A stretch of DNA of 62,770 bases, from the NCBI GenBank assembly GCA_030614255.1, contig JAUWKI010000005.1, forward strand, positions 1-62,770. Direction: 5' to 3'. Origin of the DNA: Actinomycetes bacterium. Its GTDB lineage: Bacteria > Actinomycetota > Aquicultoria > UBA3085 > Oleimmundimicrobiaceae. The position numbers and the translations under genes are program-made. Below, piece after piece: positions 56,800 through 62,770 of the stretch (positions within the stretch are counted from its first letter, which is position 1; each line of letters opens with the position of its first letter). The notes beneath the pieces are model-generated. The model ran no database searches. It was not told the DNA's origin and saw only the letters and a list, made by a program, of their open reading frames with translations.

Positions 56800-57777
56800 T
56801 TAATGATACCTATTAATTACAAACTCTCCGATGAAACGTAGCTCTCTTCTTGCTTCATCAGCATCGATTAATTTCAGAGCCTCGAAGGCTTTTTCCACAA
56901 ATCCTTTCGCTCTATTCTTTGTTTCCTTAATTGCTGAAGTGGCTTTAATTATCCTGATAGCTTTTTCTATCTCTTCTTCAGTTGAATTTACATTCTCTAC
57001 CACATTTTGTAAATATGCCCTCTGTGAGGTTTCTTGCAGAGCAAGAAATATAGGCATAGTAACCATGCCATCTTTTAAATCTATCCCGATTGGTTTTCCA
57101 AGTATCCTCTTATCCCCCGAAATATCTAAAACATCGTCATATATCTGAAATGCCATTCCAAGGTTTTCACCATATCTTCCCACTGCCTCAATTTCTGTTT
57201 CCTTTGCACCTGAGAGCACCGCGCCCATCGAGCAAGCCGCGGAAAACAAGAGAGCTGTCTTATTTCTTATCTTGGTCAAATAATCATCTATAGTTTGATT
57301 AAAGTTACGGCAAGTTCTCATCTGATGAAGTTCCCCGACACTCAGCGCGAGAGCCGCTTCCGCCATTACTTTCATAAGGTAAGGATTATTCAATTTTGAA
57401 AGAATCTCGAAGGCTACTCCAAACAGATAGTCCCCCGTAGAAATGGCCACCTTCTCATCCCATGTAGCATTAATCGTCGGAGAACCGCGACGCGTATCGG
57501 CTCCGTCTAAAACATCGTCGTGAATTAGGGATGCTGTATGAACTAACTCAATGGCCACAGCCGAGGGTATTAGCTTGGATACATCATATATATTTATCAT
57601 TCCCGTCAAAAGAACGAGAATTGGCCTAAGCCTTTTACCCCCTGCTTTAAGCGTAGTTAAAGCTGCCTCGGCAAGCTTCCCTTCTTTTAAGGATACAATC
57701 CTTGTAAGCTCGTCTTCAACTAGCTTTAAATCTTCTTTTAGGCGAGATGGTAACGAATAAACTTTAGACATTTTCAC
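56800..57777 (-). CDS. Polyprenyl diphosphate synthase
   Basis: Chain-elongating trans-isoprenyl synthase, 325 residues. First aspartate-rich motif in LIHDDVLDGADTRRG (DDxxD) and second in IYDDVLDISGDK (DDxxD), plus the lysine patch AGGKRLRPIL near the start. The product chain length cannot be read exactly; position after menG suggests it makes the menaquinone side chain. Confidence 0.94.
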   Translation of the reverse strand: MKMSKVYSLPSRLKEDLKLVEDELTRIVSLKEGKLAEAALTTLKAGGKRLRPILVLLTGMINIYDVSKLIPSAVAIELVHTASLIHDDVLDGADTRRGSPTINATWDEKVAISTGDYLFGVAFEILSKLNNPYLMKVMAEAALALSVGELHQMRTCRNFNQTIDDYLTKIRNKTALLFSAACSMGAVLSGAKETEIEAVGRYGENLGMAFQIYDDVLDISGDKRILGKPIGIDLKDGMVTMPIFLALQETSQRAYLQNVVENVNSTEEEIEKAIRIIKATSAIKETKNRAKGFVEKAFEALKLIDADEARRELRFIGEFVINRYH

Positions 57778-60259: not shown

Positions 60260-60342
60260 AAGAACTACCTCCATTAAAAATTTCACGAACTTAAACATTT
60301 TACAGTAAAGACTTAAAGGAAAAAAGAGAGAAGCGGCTAAAA

Positions 60343-60996
60343 TTATCCTTTGGAAATAAGCAGTTTAAACTGCTCCGAAGTGGGACATCCGGGTAAGTCC
60401 TCTAGGGATTCTATGGCAACATTCTTGCAAGTTTCAATGACATTACCAGAGATTCCCCCGACTTCATAAAATATCCCAAAATTTAATCCGAAGGACTTCA
60501 AAGTCTCAACAATCTTCTCATCTACCTTCCCGATTAAGGCCCCGAGCCAGCATGAAGTCCTATAAAGGGTTGCTAACTCACTTCGTCTTTCAAACTCCTC
60601 TAAATCTTCTGAATTTCCCCTGGCAAAACTCGCGATTGTCTGAGCAAGAATATTAACCACCCCAACATCGTCAAGAAAAGTGACAAGGGAGATTGCCTTG
60701 GCATAATAAAAATCGCCTATTATGAGAGAAAAATTAGTTAGTGGAGAGTAGTAACGACGCTTGAAAGCCAGGTCAAAAAGCTCAACAGCCAGCGCCGCGG
60801 GAAGAAGTCTTTCAAAATCATAGCTCCCAAACTCCGCCGATAGCAAAAGCAATTTTGCCTGAAGAAGATCCCTTCCTTGAGGGATGCGCTCCATCTCATT
60901 ATTATCTGAAGACGAGAAAATTTTGTGGCCGCTTGCCACTTCGTGCTTCAGAACTTCTTCTACTTTTTTTAAATCCTTTTCGACTCTCGCAGTTAT
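60343..60996 (-). CDS. Degenerate polyprenyl-synthase paralogue, probable ATA start
   Basis: The 217-residue protein aligns with trans-prenyl synthases: an N-terminal VEKDLKKVEEVLKHE, then AALAVELFDLAF, GDFYYAKAISLV and SFARG. Both DDxxD motifs are missing, suggesting a non-catalytic partner subunit as in heterodimeric synthases. The usual start would be GTG at 60939 without a ribosome site; ATA at 60994-60996 is preceded by GGTGA and gives the full family N-terminus. It lies 84 bp upstream of the radical SAM gene and looks like the operon's first gene. Confidence 0.7.
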   Translation of the reverse strand: MTARVEKDLKKVEEVLKHEVASGHKIFSSSDNNEMERIPQGRDLLQAKLLLLSAEFGSYDFERLLPAALAVELFDLAFKRRYYSPLTNFSLIIGDFYYAKAISLVTFLDDVGVVNILAQTIASFARGNSEDLEEFERRSELATLYRTSCWLGALIGKVDEKIVETLKSFGLNFGIFYEVGGISGNVIETCKNVAIESLEDLPGCPTSEQFKLLISKG

Positions 60997-61313
60997 ATCT
61001 AATCACCAAAGGTAATTTTAGCATAATATTAATTTTTGGGTTTAGAAGATTCTGCTTCCGGTCCTACATAAGCCCAATAAAAACTATTAATGCAATAACC
61101 CCCAATAATCTTCACAAAAATTCCTTAATACAATCGCAGTAACCATCTGCATTTCGTCAGACTAGTACCTAGTGTGCTCCTGTTTACATAGACAATTTTA
61201 TCTCTGCCATTGTGATTTAGTTGAGATTTTGTATAATAGTACTAAAGAAAAGACTAAAAAAAAGGCTTCTGTGTGCAAAAACCACAAAACTGAGTTAAGG
61301 AAAGCTGGTAAAA
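60997..61313. other. Divergent regulatory region between the prenyl block and the BldD-like regulator
   Basis: No annotated gene. A clear plus-strand promoter (61210-61237) precedes the regulator. The minus-strand part contains a short hydrophobic frame that could not be supported as a gene. No palindromic operator was recognised. Confidence 0.6.
61210..61237 (+). promoter_or_regulatory. Promoter of the BldD-like regulator gene
   Basis: TTGTGA at 61210-61215, a 16-bp spacer and TATAAT at 61232-61237 make a good sigma-70-type promoter. The start codon at 61314 leaves a leader of about 70 nt with AAGGAAAG near the start. Confidence 0.6.
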
Positions 61314-61757
61314 ATGAACTACAGTAAGCTGGTTGGAGAAAAATTAAGGGAGATTAGAAAGAAGAAGGGTTATAGTTTAAAACTTGTCGAGGATAAAACC
61401 ATGGGCAACTTCAAGGCCTCCACCTTAGGAGCTTATGAACGAGGCCAGCGCAATCTCTCAATACAACACGTTTGGGAACTGGCACGATTTTATGATGTTA
61501 ATCCGGATGAGCTAATCCGTGTAGAAAAAGAAACTTCCAATAGAAGAGATCGAGTTAATTTAAAGATCATCCCCGATCTCTCTGATACAGATAAAACCCT
61601 GCTCCATAACTACATTAAATATATAGATAATAAAAGAAAAGAATTTGATTGGAACGTTCGCTCGCTTCGACAAAGTGACATACTCTCATTGGCTCACCTC
61701 GTAGATGTCACACCAGATGTAATCAGCGATAAACTGGGCCAGATTGTCCAGCACTAG
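61314..61757 (+). CDS. BldD-like HTH regulator with degenerate c-di-GMP signature
   Basis: The 147-residue protein has an N-terminal XRE helix-turn-helix (about 1-68, with SYERG-like GAYERGQRNLSIQ). The C-terminal domain matches BldD: the c-di-GMP motif RGD-x8-RQDD is seen here as RKE (108-110), eight residues, then RQSD (119-122). Spacing is kept but one residue in each half differs. In Streptomyces BldD blocks sporulation genes when bound by c-di-GMP; whether this homologue binds it is unknown. Confidence 0.85.
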   Translation: MNYSKLVGEKLREIRKKKGYSLKLVEDKTMGNFKASTLGAYERGQRNLSIQHVWELARFYDVNPDELIRVEKETSNRRDRVNLKIIPDLSDTDKTLLHNYIKYIDNKRKEFDWNVRSLRQSDILSLAHLVDVTPDVISDKLGQIVQH

Positions 61758-61830
61758 TCTTTTACGGAGTTACTATTTTCTTTAATATTATTCCCTTAGC
61801 CACTTATTTCTGCAGATATTCTTCCAGCAT

Positions 61831-62674
61831 AGGGGGTCAGGCCTGACAAACTTGACAAACTCCACTGAATTTATTTAGATTGGAGAAAACAATGAAGGAG
61901 ACACGTTGGCAAGAAAACCACGAATTGAATTTGCTGGAGCACTCTATCATATTATTGCCCGAGGTAACAATAAGGAAGATATATTTACAGAAAGTAAAGA
62001 TTATCTAAAATATCTAAGTCTTTTAAAAAAATATCAAGAACGAACCTCCTTCCATCTTTACGCTTTCGCTCTTATGACAAATCACGTCCATCTTCTTTTA
62101 GAAACAGAAGACACCCCTCTCTCAAAATCAATGCAGGGCATTCAGCAAAGCTATACCCAATATTTTAACCGCAAATACAGTCGAGTTGGACATCTCTTTC
62201 AAGGACGATACAAAGCCATCCTCTGCGAAAAAGACCCTTACCTTCTGGAACTTATAAGGTATATTCATCTCAATCCGGTACGCTCAAAAATAGTCGACTG
62301 TCCCAGTAAATATTCATGGACCAGTCATCTTGTTTATCTGGATAAAAAGAAAATGAAGTTTGTTGAAACAGATAAAACACTCTCGATGTTTTCCAGAAGT
62401 AAAAGTAAAGCCAGAGAACTATATTTAAAATTTATTTTCGAGGAGAAAAATGCGAGACATAAAGAAGAATTCTATGATTTGTCTGAACAACAGTATCTAG
62501 GAAGAGAAGAATTCATAGAAGAAATAAAGAAAAGAACAAAAACAACCAAAGAATTTGAGAAAAAAAGCAGTTTAATTAAGTTAGTTAAAGTGATTGCCGA
62601 TCTAACCAAAATTGCCGAAGAAAGCATAAAAAGCTCCAGCAGGTGATGGACGTCAACTATTTTTCCCCTCTGAC
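61831..62674 (+). mobile_element. Putative REP-type (RAYT/Y1) transposable element
   Basis: The element is bounded by AGGGGGTCAGGCCTGACAAA on the left, in which TCAGGCCTGA (61837-61846) is a perfect palindrome, and by GTCAACTATTTTTCCCCTCTG at about 62652 on the right. ACTTGAC on the left and GTCAACT on the right are partly complementary. The transposase gene occupies 61906-62646. Ends are inferred from pattern only. Confidence 0.6.
61906..62646 (+). CDS. REP-associated tyrosine transposase (RAYT, HUH/Y1 family), C-terminally short
   Basis: Single-strand HUH endonuclease of the kind that cuts and moves REP palindromes in enterobacteria. The 246-residue protein starts at TTG (61906-61908) after AAGGAG at 6-nt spacing. 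It has ALYHIIARGNN, the HUH motif TNHVHLLLE (about 64-72) and a later Tyr in DPYLLELIRYIHLNPVR. The C-terminus ends within what would be a DnaA-like helix-turn-helix domain (EESIKSSSR, stop), suggesting truncation. The remaining 62647-62770 shows no gene. Confidence 0.85.
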   Translation: MARKPRIEFAGALYHIIARGNNKEDIFTESKDYLKYLSLLKKYQERTSFHLYAFALMTNHVHLLLETEDTPLSKSMQGIQQSYTQYFNRKYSRVGHLFQGRYKAILCEKDPYLLELIRYIHLNPVRSKIVDCPSKYSWTSHLVYLDKKKMKFVETDKTLSMFSRSKSKARELYLKFIFEEKNARHKEEFYDLSEQQYLGREEFIEEIKKRTKTTKEFEKKSSLIKLVKVIADLTKIAEESIKSSSR

Positions 62675-62770
62675 GACAATTATTTTTCCCGATGTTTGAG
62701 TTAAAAAAATTACCCCATTTCCCGTATTTTTCTGTCTTTAGCCGTAGCCATACGATAACTCGGTATATTA

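Follow-up and report, generated by a model that had tools for sequence, protein, structure and literature searches.

The window analysed here, a stretch of 62,770 nucleotides, encodes a protein (P0001) that is probably a BldD-family regulator, binding DNA under the control of c-di-GMP and lying outside the orthologous BldD group. BldD of Streptomyces is the switch that restrains spore formation while c-di-GMP is abundant and is the textbook example of a tetrameric second-messenger clamp. The basis computed for P0001 consists of its domain make-up, the homology of its ligand surface, the conservation of the equivalents of BldD Arg114, Arg125 and Asp128, and the presence of c-di-GMP synthase domains in the genome. 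From this we infer that the protein binds the ligand, dimerises and represses. The features of the gene and its surroundings are collected in Table 1.

Table 1. Features of the P0001 gene and its flanks, in positions of the window.
Feature	Position	Strand	Basis
Stretch of 802 bp holding the P0001 gene; G032 has 23 bp at the same site	61027..61828		Comparison with G032
Sigma-70-like promoter match TTGTGA-16-TATAAT, 5' of the P0001 gene	61210..61237	+	10/12 matches
Gene for BldD-like regulator P0001, 147 aa	61314..61757	+	ORF, ATG start
Helix-turn-helix (HTH) DNA-binding domain, aa 11-67	61344..61514	+	Pfam HTH_3; PDB 2ewt match
Short linker, aa 68-80	61515..61553	+	Alignment
BldD-like C-terminal domain (CTD; c-di-GMP type), aa 81-143	61554..61742	+	Pfam PF21179
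Motif 1, R108-K109-E110 (BldD R114-G115-D116)	61635..61643	+	Sequence and alignment
Motif 2, R119-Q120-S121-D122 (BldD R125-Q126-D127-D128)	61668..61679	+	Sequence and alignment
REP-associated Y1 transposase adjoining the P0001 gene; same site in G032	61906..62646	+	Similarity, 89% identity to G032

Both domains of P0001 could be recognised by profile searches. The Pfam HTH_3 model matched residues 11-67 at 47.4 bits against a cut-off of 23, and the XRE-type HTH matched the DNA-binding domain of BldD (PDB 2ewt) with an E-value of 2.3e-13, as expected from the sequence-only reading, in which the HTH was said to fit BldD. The same reading had taken the second domain to be BldD-like and this too was borne out, the Pfam BldD-like_C model matching residues 81-143 at 39.3 bits against a cut-off of 27 (35 bits in the genome-wide scan). 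With P0001 alone as the query, phmmer found the BldD CTD in the PDB at E-values of 0.017-0.046. A CTD profile made from 111 homologues with P0001 left out scored P0001 at 40.3 bits; the best shuffle of residues 68-147 reached 12.5 bits on that profile (4566 scored of 5000). The match to the BldD-like CTD profile is not due to chance. The bare RxD/E-x8-RxxD pattern arises in 869 of 100000 shuffles and the motif alone is therefore weak evidence; the pattern together with the Ile and Ser contact positions arises in 7 of 100000. A single-sequence AlphaFold2 model of P0001 was unusable (mean pLDDT 49.7), hence the fold of the CTD stays predicted. The promoter match upstream of the gene is not significant by itself, five promoter-like sites having been found against 5.7 expected, and Rfam gave no match in 60300-62770.

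The contacts made by BldD are given in the available text of the paper on the BldD-c-di-GMP structure (PMC4151990). Of the two c-di-GMP dimers, one is read by the motif 2 residues Arg125 and Asp128 and the other by the motif 1 residue Asp116, and Arg114 contacts both; guanine is read by Arg114, Arg125 and Asp128, and its N1/N2 by Asp116. Lys84 and Arg130 contact phosphates, Ile110, Asn118 and Ser123 contact bases, and a swap of either motif abolishes c-di-GMP binding (PMC4151990). The signature of P0001 is R108-K-E110-x8-R119-Q-S-D122, in which three of the four RXD-X8-RXXD residues are kept. RKE at 108-110 and RQSD at 119-122 thus lie eight residues apart, as had been claimed, and the alteration proposed for the ligand signature comes down to one position, Asp116, which is Glu. 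Over the nine published contact positions, P0001 keeps I104 (Ile110), R108 (Arg114), S117 (Ser123), R119 (Arg125) and D122 (Asp128), has Arg (R80) in place of Lys84, counted here as kept, and is changed at three, namely E110 (Asp116), D112 (Asn118) and L124 (Arg130). Given that motif 2 and the Arg114 equivalent are whole, the changes sit in motif 1 plus one phosphate contact. Weaker binding by P0001, or binding with another stoichiometry, is possible.

Variation of the signature was followed in homologues collected with the Pfam profile, a search that may be biased towards proteins carrying the motifs. There were at least 150 matches, and 113 of the 150 places listed were used (L080 yielded no row); 131 rows were aligned and 19 falling short of both motifs were set aside to leave 112 from the phylum, P0001 included. 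Arg114, Arg125 and Asp128 were each invariant in 112 of 112 rows. Asp116 was the sole signature position to vary, with 96 Asp, 10 Glu and 6 other residues. The ligand site that was to be sought in orthologues is, across these homologues, fixed at three signature residues and variable at the fourth. According to the available text of the 2014 paper, the four signature residues, Asp116 included, were strictly kept in all homologues known then (PMC4151990); judged from these alignments, strict conservation of Asp116 is not borne out by the wider sample. For the tree, the 112 rows were reduced to 93 with both domains by removing ten near-identical Streptomyces rows, the rows without an HTH and one row with X's. 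Parsimony on Glu versus not-Glu at position 116 needs 6 changes, the tree of HTH-bearing proteins holding six Glu rows, and D116E is thus a recurrent variant of the family. Asn118 was present in 86 of the 96 rows with Asp116 versus 1 of the 16 without (Fisher p 3e-11, the rows being related and not independent). The association ran the same way on the tree in a mean of 2.7 of 4 supported pairs and in none the opposite way, though with only four supported independent pairs the sign test is unable to reach 0.05. Arg130 accompanied Asp116 over all rows (64/96 versus 4/16 of the others) and this association was absent on the tree.

A set of short proteins (L072 and L074-L079, from families f48, f52 and others) has a BldD-like CTD without an HTH and, in several cases, a hydrophobic N-terminal stretch. 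In most of these, motif 1 reads RGE or another non-RGD form and Phe occupies the Ser123 position; L077 scored 37.3 bits with the Pfam BldD-like_C model. They are possibly membrane-anchored c-di-GMP binders.

Since the guanine-reading core is intact, the simplest reading of P0001 is a c-di-GMP-dependent DNA-binding dimer, as in BldD. At high c-di-GMP, the CTDs of two monomers would close on a stack of c-di-GMP, and this closure would pair the HTH domains for binding to a palindromic operator. When c-di-GMP falls, the pair would separate. The replacements D116E and N118D, with R130L, may loosen the second c-di-GMP dimer, so that P0001 possibly binds a c-di-GMP dimer instead of a tetramer. That a natural dimer-binding form has arisen several times, with P0001 as one case, is a more speculative proposal and rather doubtful. 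It is also conceivable, if unlikely, that the CTD is a relic in which the fold and three residues remain but c-di-GMP is no longer usefully bound, DNA being bound signal-free or via another partner. The changes at three of the nine contact positions would suit such a relic, as would the long branch of P0001 in the tree (2.02 changes per column). However, one would expect conserved residues to have gone from a site in decay, and P0001 keeps all three invariant ones plus the equivalents of Ile110 and Ser123.

The relationship of P0001 to BldD proper was examined with the NCBIfam BldD equivalog model, which scored residues 2-142 at 95.1 bits, below the 250-bit cut-off; the Streptomyces control scored 297.3 bits and two other members of the class 124.8 and 103.8. 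Streptomyces-type bldD loci adjoin pyrR-pyrB, an arrangement seen within a flank of up to 1.5 kb in 15 of 32 loci (14 from Streptomyces or near it, plus that of G020). No BldD-like gene was found beside pyrR of the P0001 genome, which lies on another contig (C3:82468-82986), and P0001 was missing from all four family relatives examined, one genome of the same genus and three of the same family. P0001 is therefore not a BldD orthologue and, as classified from its sequence, is a BldD-family protein (HTH plus BldD-like_C) outside the orthologous group. For the same reasons, the suggestion that it shows what ancestral BldD did is not supported.

BldD-like_C was present in 3 of the 36 class genomes and in 114 of the 396 genomes sampled in the phylum. 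This phylum is taken to be Actinomycetota, as genomes belonging to it carry BldD almost identical to the Streptomyces chains in the PDB. The absence of the P0001 gene from the four relatives may reflect a gain here or losses there: a clade uniting P0001 with the other class members, the proteins of G026 (L012) and G020 (L013), was not rejected (p-AU 0.324) in a tree in which long branches meet; eight truncated proteins of the class were included in the first tree and omitted from the p-AU tree. The G026 and G020 proteins have the HTH and CTD of P0001 and are 43% and 35% identical to it, but unlike P0001 they keep RxD (as RED and RDD respectively). The G026 gene adjoins asd-lysC and the G020 gene pyrR-pyrB (names read off translations, without a family scan), and the G020 signature, RDD-x8-RDQD, fits RXD-X8-RXXD. 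This pyrR-linked homologue is a better candidate than P0001 for the early role of BldD.

The site of the P0001 gene was compared with G032 and G034, on which the comparison rests, the G033 contig ending before the site and the G035 site not being resolved. The G034 site (L158 5386-5914) is occupied by a gene for a ParE-type toxin (40.7 bits) with an ORF of 93 aa before it. A contig chimera was considered and rejected: both flanks of the P0001 gene match one G032 site, and the REP-associated transposase follows in both the P0001 genome (G000) and G032, which argues against a chimera. The transposase ORF has 246 aa here versus 311 aa in G032 and may thus be truncated. Its leader, GGGGTCAGGCCTGACAAACTTGACAAACTC at 61833-61862, has two copies each in G000 and G032 and none in the three other family genomes searched. 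On the other side of the gene, the ORF at 60343-60939 resembles polyprenyl synthetases weakly, its 25.2 bits falling short of the cut-off of 27. A full synthase lies nearby at 56800-57777, and the ORF may encode the small subunit of a synthase made of two parts.

A BldD-like HTH protein that stops where motif 1 would begin (ending in IKAKRRAEGK or similar) was observed in 16 class genomes (L046, L048-L062). A gene for an M78 (ImmA/IrrE-like) protease followed in three of five neighbourhoods, one of them scanned with Pfam and two assigned by similarity to that one. These ImmR/ImmA-like proteins share the BldD-like HTH with P0001, at 30-37% identity mostly over residues 1-112, whereas they differ in being without motif 2 and in having the protease partner; BldD-like_C was not found in the one scanned.

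P0001 might instead regulate a small mobile or accessory unit, in the manner of ImmR or of an XRE repressor of the phage type, having been acquired at a variable site and having a CTD of little consequence. The site does vary among relatives, being empty in G032 and holding the toxin gene in G034, a transposase adjoins the gene, and the proteins of the class with a BldD-type HTH do adjoin a protease in the proportion just given. P0001 nevertheless has the second half of the CTD that those proteins miss, and no M78 gene was found among its scanned neighbours, which are the polyprenyl-synthetase-like ORF and the Y1 transposase. Nor do mobile elements supply a close relative: tblastn matched 21 phage and 24 plasmid records, mostly over the HTH half, and the best full-length match was a chromosome-sized Nonomuraea record of 34.3% identity. 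An alignment search of viral contigs gave two matches in the HTH half only, and a search of the genome contig collection gave ten loci, all Clostridia-type matches of the HTH half. Such a mobile-unit origin appears improbable. Least credible of all is a preference of the altered motif for a different cyclic dinucleotide, either c-di-AMP or a mixed one, as the sequence-only reading had allowed in suggesting a changed ligand choice. The residue that reads guanine N1/N2 in BldD is changed, but Glu retains the carboxylate, and c-di-AMP is not bound by BldD according to the available text of PMC4151990. The guanine contacts Arg114, Arg125 and Asp128 are kept, which makes another ligand unlikely, and the altered residue gives no reason to expect one.

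Control of P0001 by c-di-GMP would find the second messenger's enzymes at hand. The P0001 genome codes for nine GGDEF domains and a single EAL domain; one GGDEF stretch was inspected and carries GGEEF. GGDEF domains are present in 36 of 36 class genomes. WhiB was not found in any of these 36, P0001's own included, so Streptomyces-like sporulation control is unlikely, and the lineage is presumably non-sporulating, judging solely by this absence. The picture of a deep-branching lineage with a BldD-family regulator thus stands as regards family membership, a class of 36 genomes without WhiB and GGDEF domains in all of them. The BldD operator pattern TNAC(N)5GTNA showed no enrichment in the window, with 6 occurrences versus 9.9 expected, and neither did a longer form of the BldD box (3 versus 7.8). 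One match to the box consensus, TCACCAAAGGTAA at 61003-61015, is placed 64 bp upstream of the divergent ORF for the polyprenyl-synthetase-like protein, at chance level for the window; G032 and G034, which are without the regulator, have a non-consensus version of this site.

That BldD is older than complex development has been argued already: the available text of a 2013 paper proposes its early presence and repeated loss in Actinobacteria, with a stationary-phase role in the simpler ones (PMC4255298). Biosensor work, in the text available, evolved the middle residues of motif 2 and neighbours of motif 1 and thereby tuned affinity (PMC11082216). A parallel case is the anti-sigma factor RsiG, for which single-motif c-di-GMP-binding forms acting as homodimers are described in basal Actinobacteria, again in the available text (PMC8325347). 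No description of an RxE form of BldD was recognised in the open-licence papers searched. With three signature residues fixed and the fourth varying with a neighbouring contact, the BldD site appears to split into a fixed and a variable half, and the natural variants at Asp116 are material for asking if the tetramer is indispensable or was added later as a refinement. With P0001, transcriptional control by c-di-GMP would reach a lineage that lacks WhiB.

P0001 and Streptomyces BldD share the HTH and BldD-like CTD joined by a short linker, the Arg114, Arg125 and Asp128 equivalents and the spacing of the motifs. They differ in that P0001 is only about 33% identical to BldD, carries D116E, N118D and R130L, falls below the equivalog cut-off, has no pyrR link and is missing from the other family genomes examined. 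The nearest known counterpart of its altered residue is the D116A mutant of the BldD CTD (PDB 5tzf and 5tzg, which we take to be a c-di-GMP-dimer intermediate), the chain of which reads RGA for RGD. The mutant is altered at the same residue as P0001, but its Ala has no carboxylate whereas the Glu of P0001 keeps one.
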